IMG/VR virus record: IMGVR_UViG_3300027963_000403
Span: 1 to 20,341 of that record
Strand: one strand, 5' to 3'
DNA length: 20,341 nt
DNA from: a virus
Below, one piece after another: positions 10,378 to 20,313 of this stretch (position 1 is its first letter; each line of letters starts with the position of its first letter). Made by a program: the position numbers and the translations under genes. Under the pieces are notes generated by a model. That model ran no database searches. It saw nothing but the letters and a program-made list of their open reading frames with translations, and was not told the origin of the DNA.

Positions 10378-13300
10378 TTATTGAGTATTTAGTTTCAATT
10401 TAGTGGCTCTGTTATCATGATTTGTGGATTCTGTGTCTCTCATCAACAAGACATCCATAAGATGCTTTGTTCTCGCAATATCATGGTTAATAGCAGATAC
10501 CAGCCAAATTCCACCATATCTTTTATTACCCATATTAAGTTTGACTTTCATTCCGGGTCTTAAGGTGAAGTCGCCGTTCAGTTTAATTGCAATCTTATTT
10601 GTGTTGATCTGCATCATTTGTGCATTTCTATACAATGGACGCTCCGGTGGAGTGTTCCAGAATGTGCAATATGTCTGGGAATACTTAAGATAATCTAAGA
10701 AATACTTACCAATACACGGACAATTGCAGTTTAATGGATTCTTGGTATCTCCCCACACACAACCCAACCAATCCTCACCAAGTACATCTTCTATGAGAGT
10801 ACATTCCTTTATTTCCTCTTCAAGATCTTTGAGTTCTTTGAATGTTGGTTCAGGACCAGTTATTCCCATAGACAATCTGTCTGGACGCAATTCCTGACAT
10901 GGGCAATTGCAAAGTGGATTGTCATCTGGACATGGTGTGTTATCTACTGGATTTGGATTTGAGCAGTTATAACCAGCACAAAGTGTATCAAGTTGAATGC
11001 TTTCTCTGGACATTACCACAAACTGAGCAGCAAAGTTTCTGTCAAATGTAGAATCATCCTCTTCTAGTTCTGGACCAACGATTCCATATTCGGTTTCACC
11101 AGATATATCGTTCTTCCAAACAGAAGCAGTCAATCCAGCCAATTGTGGATGTTGCCATATAGCAGAACCGTAATAATAACCATAGAATGCCGTTTCTTCT
11201 TCTGGTTCTACTCTGTCGTTTCTATTTCTTAAATCCAGTTCAAAGAAAGAAATCCAAGGTTCGTTTTCATATATTTCTCCGGGATAATATGAGGCGTTTG
11301 ATTTAAAATAATCTTTAGACACTGGTAATGTATTATCACCATAACTACTAACATATATAACCGTATTTCCCGGATATAACATAACCGAATTATACTTAAA
11401 TGAGGTTGGAACATCACTACCATCATAGTACCAATTTGAGAAGAAACCACTGTTGGGATTATCACCATAATCAATTTCAATAAAGTTAGTTATCCACGAC
11501 AAACAATAGTACAACGGGGTCAAATATGCGGTATTAACTCCTTGGGGCCTTATATTATTAATTTCAAAATATGATGTTGGTAATGATAATGGATTTGTTC
11601 GTGTAACCGATTTTACTAAATCATAATAAAATGCCTCAGTTGATATAGTAAAAGACGAATAACGATTGCTTGCTAAATTTGGAGAATATAAAACAGCATT
11701 TCTAAACGAATCAAACCTTACTGAATTATTATCATTTGTTGTGTAAAAATTGTTACCACGGAATGGAGATAAATAGGTTACTATGTTAGCTTCATTATAA
11801 TAAAGACTCTTTTTATACCAAGATGGCATTAAACCATATGATGTAGCGTAAGATCCGGCATAAGTATAATACTGATTTGAATAGGAATCAATCGAATATA
11901 TTGGATTCGTGTATCCCTTTTCCATAACATGGAAGTCTTTATTATTGACTAATGCTTTATTTTCTGGTTTTAATTTTTGTTTTTTCTTCCGTATTCGTTT
12001 AACAGCAACATCAAATCCATATGGATCTTGTCCTAAGACAGATATATTGTAATCAACAGATTTTGTTCCGAATGGACCAGCAGTTAGAAGAACATGATAT
12101 GGTAAATAATATTCTGAGCCTGGAGTATCATAAAAACCTTTAGGAAAATCATATAGAGTATTTGTACCAATTGGTTTTTGAAATTCTACTCGCACAAAAC
12201 TTTCAATTTCTTCTAAAACAGTTTCAATTGGCCGTTTTGGTTCTTCATCATCTGCTGGTGGCTGAATATCTGTAAAATTTCTAGAATTTAAATATTCTAT
12301 TGGATTAAAATCTTCTATTCGCTCCATACCAAATGGTTCTAGAACACACACACCGGGATCATATTGTGACAAAAATGCATTACCTTTATTGTCCGAGTGT
12401 ACAAAATCAATCTCAAATTTAATATTTTTTACTAGTTTTCGAGTACCACATTTAACTTCGCTTTCTTGTGTTGAAGTAAAAGAATTAGAAGTAACATTAC
12501 TAGTATTACCATATTGAGTTCCATCCCAATTTGTTACTAATTTATTTACTATTGTAGAAATAATATTACTTTTTGTTAAATTACTTGGATCATGATCCGT
12601 AATTACTTTATCATAAATACCATAACTTGTGCCGGTTTCAGTCTTGATTTCTACACCATCACATTCGCCTGGTGGTGGTTCATCGCAACATGGACACCTT
12701 TCACCGCCGCCGCCACCGCCGCCGCCGCCGAAGCCGCCGCCGGGATTGCCGGTGCTGCAATCACAACCCGGGCACCACGGATCGCGCGGCGGAATTACCG
12801 GACCAGTGCTTTCCCATTGCGTGGTATTTTTAACTCTTACTGTAATAAAATATAGAAATTGCTTAATTGGATCAGGATCAATAGCAGAACCAGAATCTGG
12901 ACCACCCGCTGGATCAAACAACGAAAATGCAGGATTTACTTGATATCCAACATCAAAATCATAACCAGAGTCATAATGTGGATGTTTTATCTTTGGATCA
13001 ATTGTATTATCATTATCATAGAAAATTTCATAAGGATAATATGAAGTTGCTCCAGATGGAAATCCTTTAAAGTCCGCAGTGACTCCATCACCAAGAGAAG
13101 AAATTAATTGAGATACAACAGACTTTTGTGCTAATTTTTCATATTTACTACCACGAATTGGTACTCTCTTTATTGATTTAATATTAAACAAATTCTTCTG
13201 TGAATTGTCAGCAGTAAAACCAATTTGATTGGAGATAAAGAATGCTTTTCTATTTTTATATTCTTCGTATACTTTTGTGAAGTTTTCTTTTTCACTAATA

Positions 13301-15154
13301 ATTATATCTGCCATAGAATCAAAATAAGGAGAAGCAAGTAATTCTTGTCTATTTCTGATTGGATTGCTAAAATAATCTTTTATGTACTTTGATTTTATTT
13401 CTTCTGAGCAAAAACAGTCTCTCCCTACACTCAGGCGATTCTCCTGGCACTCTTGTATAGCCACTGGATCACTGCATATAGGAAGATCCTCATACTTTGG
13501 TTTTACGTCTTGAAGTCTAGTAATTGCATTTTGTATTGTTTCTTTTGCAATATCAATTCTCTTCAGTTCTAGATCATAAAGATATTTGGTTTGCAGATCT
13601 GGTGTTTCGCGTAAATACATCAAATCACCAATTGTTGTATTAAAAGGCTCAGACTCAAAGTCATAACTCAAAGACAAACCAGCAGGGAACATAGCAGGTA
13701 AAGTAGAACCAGTTGCTCCCATATAGTTAACCATATCACTAAATGCACCAGCAGCCACAACTCCATATTCTGGAGTAAATACAACATCTTCTAATGCAGT
13801 GATGTCTTGATAACGAGTATCACAGCAAATACTACAACGATATACTTTCCACTTTTCTTTTAGATTTTTCTTGTTTGCATATTCTATTCTTTTATCTTTG
13901 ATCTTTTGCTTGATATCTTTTTGAATCTTCTTGCAGATTTCTCCATCGAGATCAACTTGATCAAACATTGGTTGCCATGATACCATTCCATCTCGGTTAG
14001 ATAGAGTATAGCCATGATGTTCCCACTCTACAGTCTTATCTCTGTTACTATAACTCGGAGAGAAATAACCAGATACATTATCATTTATGATATTGGCAAC
14101 TGTTGGCTTGGTGTCAACGCTTGTATCAAATAAAGGATGGTTTTCTACTTTTAACCATTTATTGTAATCTTTGAAATAATCATAACTTACTTCTTTGAAC
14201 GAATGTGATTCATTATAATCAAGATATTCTCTATATGGTTGATCCCATTTAGGTTCAATTAAATAATATTTGGATGCTATAGCATTTGATTCAAATAGTC
14301 TTAAGAAATTGGCTTCTTGTACTGTCTCCAATGTGTAAATGTTTTTATTCTGAGTTGGAATATTAGTTACTTCATATTCTCTGACTACAGATTCCTTCAG
14401 CAAAGATTCAATACTTCTAAAGTTCCATCTGTCAAGATCTTGCCAAAATAAGAAATTACATGCATATTGGTTTTCCTCACCAACTGCATATTCTGCCAAA
14501 AACTGCATTAATTGTGCTGCTTTAATTGGTCTTGTTAATTTGCCCCAAGGATATAAAGACTGATTCTGTTTGTACCAGATCCAGTTTCCAGTTGGTTCAA
14601 TAAACATTTCTTTTTGTGTCGTATCAGTATTAGTTTTTCCGGTTTTGAAAAACTGATTATTGATCATATTAACAAGACCAACTGGAGTATCCTGATTGGC
14701 ATTTTCTTTAGATGATGCAATTTTTGTAATAATATCTGCGCCGGTTAATCCAGCCAGTTCTGTAAATTCTCTATAAGTAAGCAAATAATGTTCATATGAG
14801 CAGAATTGAATTTCTAATTTTACATTAGTTACATTTACATCTTCTTTAACCTTATTGTTTGCAATCTGATCATCTGATGCTTTTACATTGTAAATCTTAA
14901 AACGCAAAGACTTATATGAATTGGGAACCTGTGGATTTTCCATCTTAACAACTAAATCTTCAAATCCAGTGAAATTCACTTGTTCCATAGTTGAATTTAA
15001 ATCACGAATAGTCAATTTACCAACAACAGATGCTTCAAACATTCCTTCAACCATTTCGTATAATTTGATAAACTTCCCCGGAAGTTGCAAGGACTTTTAT
15101 CTCATAAATTTTTAAATTGTAAATATCTTGTACTATTTGATCCGCTTTTGCCAT
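10378..15154 (-). CDS. Giant baseplate hub protein (gp27-like), with a frame break near its N-terminus
   Basis: The main frame (10378-15090) encodes 1,570 residues if started at a TTG. The likely true start is the ATG at 15154, 2 nt after the gp53 stop, like the other junctions of this operon. It reads MAKADQIVQDIYNLKIYEIKVLATSG and would join the main frame at KFIKLYEMVEGMFEASVVGKL, giving about 1,591 aa, but a one-base shift at 15076-15079 is needed. The N-terminal barrel region (up to about residue 130) and the C-terminal FTLRPGMKVKLNMGN...GGIWLVSAINHDI...LLMRD (last 63 residues) are the hallmarks of hub proteins such as gp27. The centre is enlarged about fourfold over T4 gp27 (391 aa), with cysteine clusters near 414-428, 540-562, 772-812, 1367-1400 and 1428-1458, and a polyglycine stretch near 790. 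No lysozyme domain was recognised. The hub joins tube, tape measure and wedges. Confidence 0.7.
10386..10393 (-). promoter_or_regulatory. Possible late-promoter-like box before gp25
   Basis: Reads ACTAAATA on the minus strand, six of eight matches to the T4 late promoter TATAAATA, about 15 nt before the gp25 ATG and inside the end of the hub gene. AT-rich sequence makes chance matches likely. Confidence 0.2.
12704..12756. repeat. CCG triplet-rich microsatellite and GC island in hub gene
   Basis: From 12704 to 12730 the plus strand reads CCG nine times with one CCA interruption, then AAG and three more CCG. On the coding strand this is GGC codons for a polyglycine linker (GGGFGGGGGGGGG) flanked on both sides by cysteine motifs. 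GC-rich sequence continues to about 12800, in contrast to the AT-rich gene around it. Confidence 0.85.
15071..15086. other. Frame break site: inverted repeat with homopolymer in hub gene 5' end
   Basis: AACTTCC at 15071-15077 and GGAAGTT at 15080-15086 form a perfect 7-bp inverted repeat around two Cs. The coding strand reads TCC GGG GAA in the frame of the upstream ATG and CCG GGG AAG in the frame of the long ORF. Deleting one G from the GGGG run joins the frames exactly. The upstream frame otherwise ends at TGA (15047-15049), 35 codons after the ATG. The long frame has a TAA at 15097-15099, so the switch must occur between these. Confidence 0.75.
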
Positions 15155-16889: not shown

Positions 16890-17330
16890 ATGGCGTATAA
16901 GAGTAAGTATAAACCAAAAAATCCACACAAATATGTTGGCAACCCAGACAACATAATATGTAGATCACTGTGGGAACGAACATTCTGTAAGTATTTAGAC
17001 GAAAATACGAATGTTATTCGTTGGTCGAGCGAAGAACTGCAAATTCCATACATCTCTCCGATGGATAATAGACCACACATGTATTATCCTGACTTTTTAT
17101 TTGAAGTAAAAAAGAATTCTTCTGTTGAGACTCTAGTTGTTGAGATAAAACCAGACAAGCAAACAAAAGAACCAGTGCGTGGAAATAAAAGTAGTAAGAC
17201 TTTCCTAACAGAAAGCCTACAATATCAGATAAATAAATCTAAGTGGGATTCTGCCAAACAATTCTGTTCGAAACAGGGGTGGAAGTTCATGGTTTTGACT
17301 GAAAACAATATATTCAAAGGAAAAACTTAA
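16890..17330 (+). CDS. 4: Head completion protein gp4 (PD-(D/E)xK nuclease fold)
   Basis: This 146-aa protein has the T4 gp4 (also 50/65) pattern: N-terminal MAYKSKYKPKNPHKYVGNPDNI, then CRSLWERTF, YYPDFLFEV and VVEIKPDKQ, ending KWDSAKQFC...GWKFMVLTE. T4 gp4 is 150 aa. The likely nuclease residues are E29 (SLWER), D68 (YPDF), E85 and K87 (VEIKP), the core of TnsA-like PD-(D/E)xK enzymes. Gp4 acts after packaging to finish DNA-filled heads before tail joining. It is the first gene of the plus unit. No clear ribosome site is visible close to the ATG; a GAGG lies too far upstream (about 14 nt). Confidence 0.92.
   Translation: MAYKSKYKPKNPHKYVGNPDNIICRSLWERTFCKYLDENTNVIRWSSEELQIPYISPMDNRPHMYYPDFLFEVKKNSSVETLVVEIKPDKQTKEPVRGNKSSKTFLTESLQYQINKSKWDSAKQFCSKQGWKFMVLTENNIFKGKT
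16992..16999 (-). promoter_or_regulatory. Candidate T4-type late promoter for the minus-strand operon
   Basis: Reads TCTAAATA on the minus strand, seven of eight matches to TATAAATA, inside the gp4 coding sequence about 113 nt before the gp48-like start. A promoter for this operon must lie within gp4 because the gap is only 10 bp. Chance matches are frequent in AT-rich DNA. Confidence 0.3.
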
Positions 17331-17896
17331 TGACATCACCCCTATATTCCGGGACTCCCGGTGGAATCATGGAATACATTTCCCAACAAAAGGGAATACA
17401 ACTTTCTACTAAATTCCGGGTATCTATTTCAAGACCAAATACTGATTCTGTAGATTTTATGTGCGACATGGCTCAAGTTCCATCTCGTAAAATCAGAGCA
17501 TATAATGATTTTATGTCAGGTGCTGCTGCACCTATTGGTATTCCATATGGTATAGACTATAACAGCAATGTGTTTCAGTTTGTAACTGAAGAGTCTTGGG
17601 TAAGTAGAAAATACTTTGAAGACTGGCAATCTGCATTTTTTAAAGATTCCTCTGGCGCATCAAACGAATACTTCAATCGAGTAGAATTTTTAGAAAATGT
17701 AGCAGGAGATGTACAAATACGAGCATTATCCGCCGGAGGTCCTGCTGGAGATCCTGCTACTACTGCTATCGTTGTAATGAGTGATTGCATTCCATTGGAA
17801 ATTGTTCCAGTAAAACTTGATGCGGCTGCATTTAATACACCACTTCGATTTATGGTGAATATGTTCTATGCAAGATCTAAGTGGTATTCTGTCTAA
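17330..17896 (+). CDS. Tail tube or tube-initiator protein (gp19/gp54 family)
   Basis: This 188-aa protein follows the tube-protein plan: an N-terminal strand LSTKFRVSISRP, FMCDMAQVPSRKI (compare F-x-C-x-A-x-x-LP in T4 gp19), a V-x-QFVTEESWVSRKYFEDWQSAFF segment (beta strand then F-x-x-WQ helix), and closing strands ending FMVNMFYARSKWYSV. Tube monomers stack as hexamers to form the DNA channel. T4 gp19 is 163 aa and gp54 is 320 aa. Length favours gp19, but its place near the gp48-like gene and the chaperone and tape measure genes, rather than beside a sheath gene, favours a gp54-like initiator. The ATG overlaps the gp4 stop (TAATG), with AAAGG about 9 nt upstream. Confidence 0.8.
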   Translation: MTSPLYSGTPGGIMEYISQQKGIQLSTKFRVSISRPNTDSVDFMCDMAQVPSRKIRAYNDFMSGAAAPIGIPYGIDYNSNVFQFVTEESWVSRKYFEDWQSAFFKDSSGASNEYFNRVEFLENVAGDVQIRALSAGGPAGDPATTAIVVMSDCIPLEIVPVKLDAAAFNTPLRFMVNMFYARSKWYSV

Positions 17897-17921: not shown

Positions 17922-18659
17922 ATGCTTAAAGAATTATTGATTGAAAAAACACCAAAATATACTGAAATTTTACCATGCAGTCAAAAACGAGTCACTTATA
18001 GACCATTTGTGGTTCGTGAAGAAAAGAATTTGATGATTGCGAAGGAAACTTCGTCATTCGACAATCTTATGACTACTGTTCAAGAGGTAATAAACTCTTG
18101 CACCACGGGAATTCCAGAAGACGACTGCAAAACTCTTCCATTTTGTGATTTAGAGTACCTTTTTCTCAAGATAAGAGAAAAATCACTCGGAGAAGTAGTA
18201 GATTGCATCATCACATGCCCAGTTACAGGTGAAAGAATACCAACAAAGATAGATTTACAGAAAACAAAGATATCAAACAAGAAAATAAACAACAAAGTAA
18301 AACTTGATGCTTCAATTTCTGTAGTAATGCAACAACCAACCCTTGAAACTTACTTAAAACTGAATAAGTTTGAAATTAAGGAAGAAGAAGATGGCATTAT
18401 TGAACTTTTGGCTCTCTGTGTCAAGGAAATACAGGCTGGAGATGAGACTTATTATGCAAAAGATGTGCAAGAGCAAGAAATTACTCAATTCATCGAGTCT
18501 TTAACATCAAAGCAATTTAAAAGCCTACTGGGATTCCTAAAAGAAATACCAACAATCGAACAAAACATAGATTACGTCACCAGTGATGGGACAAAACGCA
18601 ACCTAACCTTACGAGGATTTACCGATTTTTTAGAATTATTCTTGGTTATGCAGATTTAA
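17922..18659 (+). CDS. 26: Baseplate hub / tail assembly chaperone, gp26-like (0-frame product)
   Basis: This 245-aa protein matches the T4-like baseplate protein family that includes gp26. Marks are YRPFVVREEKNLMIAKET near the start, a PFCDLEYLFLKIREKSLGEVV segment, then a CPVTGERIPTKIDL strand (a short Cys/beta hairpin), and a helical C-terminal half (TSKQFKSLLGFLKEIPTIE). T4 gp26 is 208 aa and is needed for hub assembly but is not found in the finished baseplate. Its position directly before the probable tape measure gene fits a tape measure chaperone. Near the end, GAT TTT TTA carries a canonical -1 slippery heptamer; without slipping, translation ends GFTDFLELFLVMQI. Ribosome site GAGGA is 8 nt before the ATG. 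The distinction between gp26 and gp51 roles is uncertain. Confidence 0.8.
   Translation: MLKELLIEKTPKYTEILPCSQKRVTYRPFVVREEKNLMIAKETSSFDNLMTTVQEVINSCTTGIPEDDCKTLPFCDLEYLFLKIREKSLGEVVDCIITCPVTGERIPTKIDLQKTKISNKKINNKVKLDASISVVMQQPTLETYLKLNKFEIKEEEDGIIELLALCVKEIQAGDETYYAKDVQEQEITQFIESLTSKQFKSLLGFLKEIPTIEQNIDYVTSDGTKRNLTLRGFTDFLELFLVMQI
18626..18632 (+). promoter_or_regulatory. -1 ribosomal frameshift site, T TTT TTA
   Basis: In the 0 frame the codons are GAT TTT TTA at 18624-18632, so T TTT TTA has exactly the X XXY YYZ form with both tRNAs able to re-pair after a -1 slip. It is eight codons plus the stop before the 0-frame end. I see no convincing downstream stem-loop. Confidence 0.75.
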
Positions 18660-18808
18660 GTGCGCTTTTTAAGATAAATTTCCAAATTTTCTTTGAACAT
18701 AAAGTACCTTTAGATCAAGTTGAAAGAATGATACCGTGGGAAAGGAACCTTTTTGTTGATATGATGAGAAAGCACATAGATGATTTGAATGAAAAACTAG
18801 GTAACTAA
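18632..18808 (+). CDS. -1 frame extension of the tail chaperone (gp51/GT-like C-terminal domain)
   Basis: After a -1 slip, the frame continues from AGA at 18632 for 58 residues (RIILGYADLSALFKINFQIF...KVPLDQVERMIPWERNLFVDMMRKHIDDLNEKLGN) to TAA at 18806-18808. The sequence is protein-like: amphipathic, with a P-W-E-R-x-x-F/Y-V-D-M turn-and-helix motif that resembles the second-frame parts of other tail assembly chaperones. The frame has no start codon until an ATG at 18728, which would give only 26 residues and lacks a good ribosome site, so it is best explained as a 295-aa fusion with the gp26-like protein. It fills the otherwise empty space up to the tape measure ATG at 18817. It may correspond in role to T4 gp51, but I cannot confirm homology. 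Confidence 0.72.
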   Translation, partial: RIILGYADLSALFKINFQIFFEHKVPLDQVERMIPWERNLFVDMMRKHIDDLNEKLGN

Positions 18809-18816
18809 GAAAAACT

Positions 18817-20313
18817 ATGAAAACAACTCATCAAAAACAAATAAAAACCTTCCTGAAGAAAGAAGCAGAAAAAATCTATCTTCCATTTTTGAAATCATTT
18901 TCAAAAAGTGGGAAAGTTGCTCAGGTTTTCCAAAAAATGATTGATGTTTTGCCAACTATAAAGAAGGCAAAGACAAAAAATGAAGAATTAGATAAAAAAA
19001 ATCTATCTCCAGTTCAACTTAATGAGACAACTCGCAAATTTAGTAACCCATTAGTTCTAAAAGCAAGTCAAACCGTTGTTAAACTACCACAAGTTGATAA
19101 AGAAAAACTTGTTTCGATGGTTAAAAACAAAGAAATAACCAATAAGTTACAATCTTTTGGTAAAAACCAATATGTTTTAACGCTTCCTGCGTATGAAGAT
19201 GGGAAAAATGTAAAAGATGCATTGAGTGGTTTGATAAATTTGACATCCACAAAAATGACTAGTATAGAACAAGAAGCAGGAAATTCGGATATACAAGACA
19301 CAAAAAGAAATGCTGAAATAGCAAAAGCAGATGCTTTAGTTGCCGCTTCAACATCAAATAATCAAATATCAAATTCAGAAGTTGAACCACCAAAATCAAC
19401 TCCTGCTAAGTTAGAAGAAAATGCAACTGAAGCAGGTGGTTCTTCTGGGGCAAAAATAACAGTTATAGGAGATAAAGCCAAAGAAGCATCTCTTGTTGGT
19501 GAGAAAAAAGGAGAAGTAGAGGCAATAACAAAAACTGCTGTTCTTCCTGAAAAGAAAGTCGAAGATGCAGCAGAAGCAGCATCTGCGGCACAAGCAAACG
19601 CAGCAACTCCAGAAGAAGAAGGATCTGGTGCAAAACGAGGCGGCGAAGCATTATTGGATATTGCATCAACTGCTATGTCTTTTATACCGGGTCTTGGAGC
19701 CGTTGGTGGTGCATTAAAAGGTCTTAAGGGACTAGGTGCTGTTGGAAAAATGGCAAATATGGCAAAAGGAATGGGTGGTGGATCACCATTATCAGCAATG
19801 TCTTCGGGTGGAGGTGGTATGGGTGGAATGCTAGGAGCAGCAGGAGGTGGTGGAGGTGGTATGTGTGGAATGCTAGGAGCAGCAGGAGGTGGTGGAGGTG
19901 GTATGCTAGGAGCAGCCACTAAGGGTGGTGGACTTGGTGGAGTACTAGGATCAGTTGGTGGGGGATTGGGTGGTCTTGCCGGAGCGGCAGCAATGGCAAC
20001 ACCGATGGGAATGGCATTAGCAGCAGCACCAGCAATTGGTGCAGCAGCAGGTGGTATAGCATCGGGAGTAGGCGCAGCAGCGGGTGGTTTAGCAGCAGGA
20101 ATTGGTTCCGCAGTTGGTGGTATTGGTGGTGCATTGATCGGTGGAATATTTGGTAATGGTAAAGAAAAAGAAAAAGAATCAAAACCAGTAGTTGTTCAGG
20201 GCAACGGAGCAGCACCAATGTCTGTTACCAATATCACATATCAGTATGACATATACCGAAAGACTGCCGACGATTCGTTTATGTTACCAAACTATAGAAG
20301 AGAATACGGTTAA
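18817..20313 (+). CDS. Probable tail tape measure protein (gp29 role)
   Basis: This 498-aa protein has a Lys/Glu/Gln-rich, mostly helical N-terminal part (residues 1-290) with Ala/Glu-rich stretches. A glycine/methionine-rich part with a 14-residue repeat (GGGMGGMLGAAGGG) follows at about 330-367. Next is a long hydrophobic Ala/Gly region (about 368-446) with many GxxxG-type spacings that could insert into a membrane. The last 30 residues (VTNITYQYDIYRK...DDSFMLPNYRREYG) look conserved. The position right after a frameshifting chaperone gene is the usual place for the tape measure, and helical plus membrane-active composition fits. T4 gp29 is 590 aa; at about 1.5 angstrom per residue this one implies a tail near 75 nm. 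No clear ribosome site is visible. A structural hub protein is the alternative. Confidence 0.6.
   Translation: MKTTHQKQIKTFLKKEAEKIYLPFLKSFSKSGKVAQVFQKMIDVLPTIKKAKTKNEELDKKNLSPVQLNETTRKFSNPLVLKASQTVVKLPQVDKEKLVSMVKNKEITNKLQSFGKNQYVLTLPAYEDGKNVKDALSGLINLTSTKMTSIEQEAGNSDIQDTKRNAEIAKADALVAASTSNNQISNSEVEPPKSTPAKLEENATEAGGSSGAKITVIGDKAKEASLVGEKKGEVEAITKTAVLPEKKVEDAAEAASAAQANAATPEEEGSGAKRGGEALLDIASTAMSFIPGLGAVGGALKGLKGLGAVGKMANMAKGMGGGSPLSAMSSGGGGMGGMLGAAGGGGGGMCGMLGAAGGGGGGMLGAATKGGGLGGVLGSVGGGLGGLAGAAAMATPMGMALAAAPAIGAAAGGIASGVGAAAGGLAAGIGSAVGGIGGALIGGIFGNGKEKEKESKPVVVQGNGAAPMSVTNITYQYDIYRKTADDSFMLPNYRREYG
19810..19917 (+). repeat. 42-bp tandem repeat in the tape measure gene (2.5 copies)
   Basis: Unit 1 (19810-19851) and unit 2 (19852-19893) differ by a single base (GGT to TGT, Gly to Cys). 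A third partial unit (19894-19917) lacks 9 bp in its middle. The reading frame is preserved, each full unit encoding 14 residues. Confidence 0.85.

Follow-up and report, generated by a model that had tools for sequence, protein, structure and literature searches.

The window (the whole stretch of virus DNA that was analysed, 20,341 bases from one virus record) very probably encodes a T4-like tail assembly chaperone in two forms: a 245-aa short form and a 295-aa long form produced by a -1 slip on the heptamer T TTT TTA. PHROG profile matches identified T4-type tail genes in the window, namely: gp25, gp6, gp53, tail tube cap, head closure gp4, and tail tube protein. The virus, a marine one, is an uncultured new representative of an already known T4-like chaperone recoding system.

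Slippery Heptamer and Reading Frames

The features of the chaperone locus, with the basis for each assignment, were:

17330..17896, + strand: tail tube protein, upstream neighbour (phrog_45 tail tube, 4.3e-15)
17922..18659, + strand: gp26-like tail assembly chaperone, short product of 245 aa (phrog_150 baseplate hub, 1.7e-48; PF12322 T4_baseplate, 1.2e-47; AlphaFold2 model)
18613..18617, + strand: Shine-Dalgarno (SD)-like GAGGA, candidate stimulator, 8 nt 5' of the slippery heptamer (best anti-SD pairing -5.9 kcal/mol)
18626..18632, + strand: slippery heptamer T TTT TTA, predicted -1 ribosomal frameshift site (in phase; conserved in relatives)
18657..18659, + strand: 0-frame stop TAA, end of the short product (reading frame)
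18632..18808, + strand: continuation in the -1 frame, 58 aa and a stop codon, forming the gp51-like C-terminal part of the 295-aa fusion (phrog_634, 3.4e-12)
18817..20313, + strand: Gly/Ala-rich protein, 498 aa, probable tape measure (position after the chaperone pair; size)

The full gp26 core was matched by both phrog_150 and PF12322, the latter at a score exceeding the Pfam cut-off. Across the slippery site the 0-frame codons are GAT TTT TTA, the phase that a tandem -1 slip needs. This is the sole in-phase XXXYYYZ heptamer (YYY = AAA or TTT) in the gp26-like ORF; none of the window's remaining ORFs contains one within an open -1 stretch. An X XXY YYZ heptamer is found, in phase, inside the overlap of the two frames, the arrangement by which -1 programmed ribosomal frameshift sites are recognised. 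Reading in the -1 frame begins with AGA at 18632 and continues for 58 codons up to the TAA at 18806-18808, giving a long product of 237 + 58 = 295 aa; the ATG of the next gene (18817) follows after an 8-nt gap. The first-pass annotation had described the heptamer in this phase, the 58 open codons, the gap and both product sizes, and had noted that the -1 frame lacks a usable start; all of this was borne out, the first ATG, GTG or TTG of that frame being at 18728, within the MIPWER motif.

In the window clade, and in a few further loci (L072, L107, L133, L152, L167), 31 nt separate the start of the heptamer from the 0-frame stop; in most relatives the distance is 7-16 nt. The window clade differs from most other T4-like loci in its distal stop and in its TTA codon, TTC being commoner elsewhere.

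Conservation of the Heptamer Among Relatives

Relatives were collected from IMG/VR scans and phage records, yielding 160 loci in which the junction could be read; 99 of these were distinct, and they formed 34 clusters at ~60% identity. An in-phase TTTTTTN was present at the junction of all 160. The 99 distinct loci comprised 54 TTTTTTC, 26 TTTTTTT, 18 TTTTTTA, and one TTTTTTG; the T run was exactly six long in 73 of them, and the seventh base was free. All 15 diverse non-Tevenvirinae phage records that were checked carried the heptamer, GC-rich genomes among them. Carriers included: Vibrio KVP40, Aeromonas PX29, Stenotrophomonas YB07 and DLP6, Sinorhizobium phiM19, Rhizobium RL2RES, Ochrobactrum OC, a Nitratidesulfovibrio phage, pelagiphage Mosig, and many cyanophages. 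Aligning the junction across T4-like relatives was the check proposed with the first-pass annotation, and both the heptamer phase and the -1 frame proved to be conserved; among the non-Tevenvirinae homologues, each one whose junction could be read has the heptamer.

From the codon use of each gene, a T before the first Phe codon was expected at 0.51 per cluster and TTT for that codon at 0.58; both were observed at 1.0. The joint synonymous-codon probability over the 34 clusters was ~1e-21, a rough guide that treats related clusters as independent. At other positions in these genes an in-phase TTTTTT is found about 0.07 times per gene, and because all 160 loci keep TTTTTTN in phase at the junction a chance origin of the heptamer is excluded. 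In many relatives a -1 frame stop lies directly 5' of the heptamer and the 0-frame stop falls 7-10 nt after the heptamer start, so that no other shift position is left in those phages.

The -1 Frame Extension

The extension matched phrog_634 ("baseplate hub assembly catalyst") over profile positions 58-110 of 121. A tblastn search with the -1 domain returned 472 phage records, and most of the matches began at the first residue past the heptamer; homology hence starts upstream of the annotated gp51 starts. Over the 45 codons past the 0-frame stop in the window clade, pN was 0.04-0.17 and pS 0.50-0.95. Extension substitutions in this clade were distributed 32/1/69 over codon positions 1/2/3. The -1 frame domain is coding and under strong purifying selection.

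No ATG, GTG or TTG was found near the junction in 64 of the 99 distinct loci or in the window. Annotated starts of stand-alone gp51 genes vary from phage to phage, and some lie within the domain (Mosig, Melnitz, C48C1). The first-pass annotation had named three findings that would speak against frameshifting: a domain encoded in homologues as a separate gene with its own start, homologues lacking the heptamer, and a -1 frame free of coding constraint. None of the three checks refuted it: the heptamer is kept at the readable non-Tevenvirinae junctions, the annotated starts shift while the -1 homology extends 5' of them, and the pN and pS values indicate strong constraint.

Relation to T4 gp26 and gp51

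T4 gp26 (208 aa) and gp51 (249 aa) are encoded on opposite strands. They have been described as hub assembly chaperones, gp51 being essential and of unknown function (PMC3004832). Both proteins were matched by phrog_150 and PF12322, and gp51 alone was matched by phrog_634. In a joint alignment the window fusion, reading DFL and then, past the junction, RIILGYADLSALFKIN, was set against gp51, reading DVF and then KLLVNPDEIFTFYQIN, and a MIP.ER motif was present in both. The T4 gp26 end, EFFELL, adjoins the slip site in this alignment, and the 0-frame end of the window protein aligns with the gp26 end. T4 gene 26 has TTC TTT at the slip-site position and not the heptamer. T4 gp26 and gp51 are paralogues, one of short and the other of long architecture; because the junction created by frameshifting falls opposite the in-frame one of gp51, T4 carries the short and long forms as two genes.

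In an unrooted core-domain tree from a short search, gp26 and gp51 of T4-like phages formed two separate adjoining clades. This topology fits the two-gene reading of T4, although it can neither date the split nor order the duplication. We lean towards a scenario in which T TTT TTN recoding, together with an SD-like stimulator, represents the ancestral and nearly universal chaperone route of the T4 superfamily, T4 and its close kin having escaped it by gene duplication, with gp51 as the frameshift product fixed in frame. In one T4-like genome (L095:2001-2746) a frame change ~370 nt in interrupts the homologue of gene 51, representing either a sequencing error or a real lesion.

Candidate Stimulators of Frameshifting

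Over the 34 clusters, anti-Shine-Dalgarno pairing peaked for 8-mers starting 14-18 nt 5' of the heptamer. Pairing at this SD-like position was -6.05 kcal/mol versus -4.60 kcal/mol in a synonymous-codon null (Wilcoxon 3e-5), and an SD-like tetramer was found in 23 of the 34 clusters. The SD-like stimulator of dnaX sits at about the same place relative to its slip site as GAGGA does here. Both this conserved upstream element and the wide range of loci surveyed add modestly to prior knowledge.

Downstream of the heptamer, no stable or conserved RNA structure was found in the window clade (z +0.15 to +0.3) and no common structure over the 34 clusters (mean z -1.0). An alignment-based RNA structure scan of the 17 most diverse homologues found no stretch conserved enough. 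Stable hairpins were predicted just 3' of the heptamer in P-SSM2 and KVP40 (z -3.2 and -2.8); the window clade was without them.

Alternative Explanations and Proposed Mechanism

Public annotation treats the 58-aa domain as a small independent gene (gp51) with its own or a re-initiated start codon. Separate coding sequences are annotated in this manner in the records for P-SSM2, S-PM2, KVP40, PX29 and others, and in KVP40, YB07, and RL2RES an ATG overlaps the stop. Against a separate gene, the first start available in the window lies inside the domain, the annotated starts disagree between phages while the homology runs up to the heptamer, and the core of T4 gp51 is fused in frame; a separate gene would also leave the invariant heptamer unexplained. 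We consider it very unlikely. The same fusion could come from RNA polymerase slippage on the T run, which would yield mRNAs with one extra U and require no ribosomal slip. The conserved T run suits this explanation, but a run of six, the exact length in most of the distinct loci, is short for transcriptional slippage, and the strict codon phase matches what tandem tRNA slippage requires. Transcriptional slippage is accordingly rated about half as probable as a separate gene.

The heptamer might also be a coincidence of conserved FF/FL residues and A+T-rich codon use, with the -1 frame a decayed or overlapping remnant. In favour of this are the conservation of the G-x-x-x-F-F motif itself and the A+T-richness of the genome. 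However, none of the 160 loci, those of 50-57% GC included, uses a synonymous option (TTC, or a third base other than T in the preceding codon), and purifying selection acts on the -1 frame, leaving coincidence the least credible of the three explanations.

Under ribosomal frameshifting, most ribosomes would produce the 245-aa gp26-like short form (the G role). Some would move back by one base at T TTT TTA, with probable help from the SD-like GAGGA, and yield the 295-aa long form with its gp51-like C-terminal domain (the G-T role). The site, its phase and near-universal conservation, the coding constraint on the extension and the homology to T4 gp26 and gp51 were established by the sequence analysis; the slip itself, its rate, the part played by the stimulator, and binding of the tape measure protein are inferred. 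By analogy with lambda G/GT, the tape measure protein encoded by the next gene would be covered by numerous short forms and a few long ones, and the C-terminal domain of the long form would recruit tail tube subunits.

Comparison With Known Chaperone Systems

The frameshift signal is real and the type of system already known, so that the novelty of the locus is limited. Tail assembly chaperones of T4-like phages had been named by Vladimirov, Gautam and Davidson (2022, Virology 566:9-15), as cited in PMC10885494 and PMC12846349. The PRFect paper, where it cites that study, states that some T4-like phages dispense with frameshifting and encode the short chaperone and the long fusion in two genes (PMC10885494). 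A 2025 paper citing the same study refers to poly-T slippery sequences as known in TAC-N genes of T4-like phages (PMC12846349). The link between recoding and T4 genes 26 and 51 that the first-pass annotation drew is therefore not new, since these citing passages indicate that it had been made.

The window shares with the gp26/gp51 chaperones of T4-like phages the phrog_150/PF12322 and phrog_634 family and the pairing of short and long forms; T4 has two separate genes on opposite strands, whereas the window has one recoded locus. Lambda G/GT and P2 E/E' have a layout in common with it: a short form, a -1 slip near its end, a C-terminal extension, and then the tape measure gene. The core domain is larger in the window, and the likeness rests on layout; the lambda slippery sequence also differs from T TTT TTA. 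The chaperone (TAC) of Pakpunavirus and Vandenendeviridae likewise has a conserved -1 shift, with a T-rich GTTTTT at the TAC-N end and a mis-annotated downstream ORF, but these are other phage families with another motif (PMC12846349).

In the public records that were checked, frameshift annotation was absent, the -1 part being blank or given as a separate gp51. The domain is unannotated in cyanophage records L071, L180, and L181; elsewhere it appears as a separate gp51 with varying starts. The "gp26" and tiny "gp51" of many cyanophage and other T4-like records are most likely one recoded gene encoding a short and a long chaperone. A corrected annotation would restore the full long chaperone, point to the tape measure gene, and offer a testable role for gp26 and gp51, the enigmatic hub factors of T4.

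Probable Chaperone Fold and Tape Measure

The AlphaFold2 model of the short form was confident, with a pLDDT of 88.9. A PDB sequence search found no relative. Plain Foldseek against the PDB returned nothing significant, although the HK97 tail assembly chaperone, at rank 39, had the best probability of the matches listed. On re-alignment to solved structures with VIA-align, the HK97 chaperone (gp13; 2ob9) was the top match with Z 7.1 over 85 residues, a value below the safe level of the tool, and the next match had Z 2.7. The resemblance is to the predicted fold of the N-terminal domain (model residues 1-89), at 7% identity. A T4-type gp51 model aligned to the HK97 chaperone at Z 3.7 and had no structural match above Z 4.8. 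The G/GT analogy drawn in the first-pass annotation gains support from the HK97 match, from the short gp26 and long gp51 of T4, and from gene order.

That order, tail tube, chaperone pair, and then a long Gly/Ala-rich gene, is the order of lambda-type tail operons. The protein encoded at 18817-20313 (498 aa) is likely the tape measure protein, as had been proposed: its position and size fit, while PHROG and Pfam profile searches gave no convincing family match and no tape-measure match by sequence. Its positional counterparts in relatives range from 492 to 865 aa, and two of them weakly match tape-measure PHROGs. Elsewhere in the window, a 1570-aa ORF with a TTG start (10378-15090, - strand) contains three phrog_350 (tail protein) stretches and several CxxC clusters, and is unusually large for that location.
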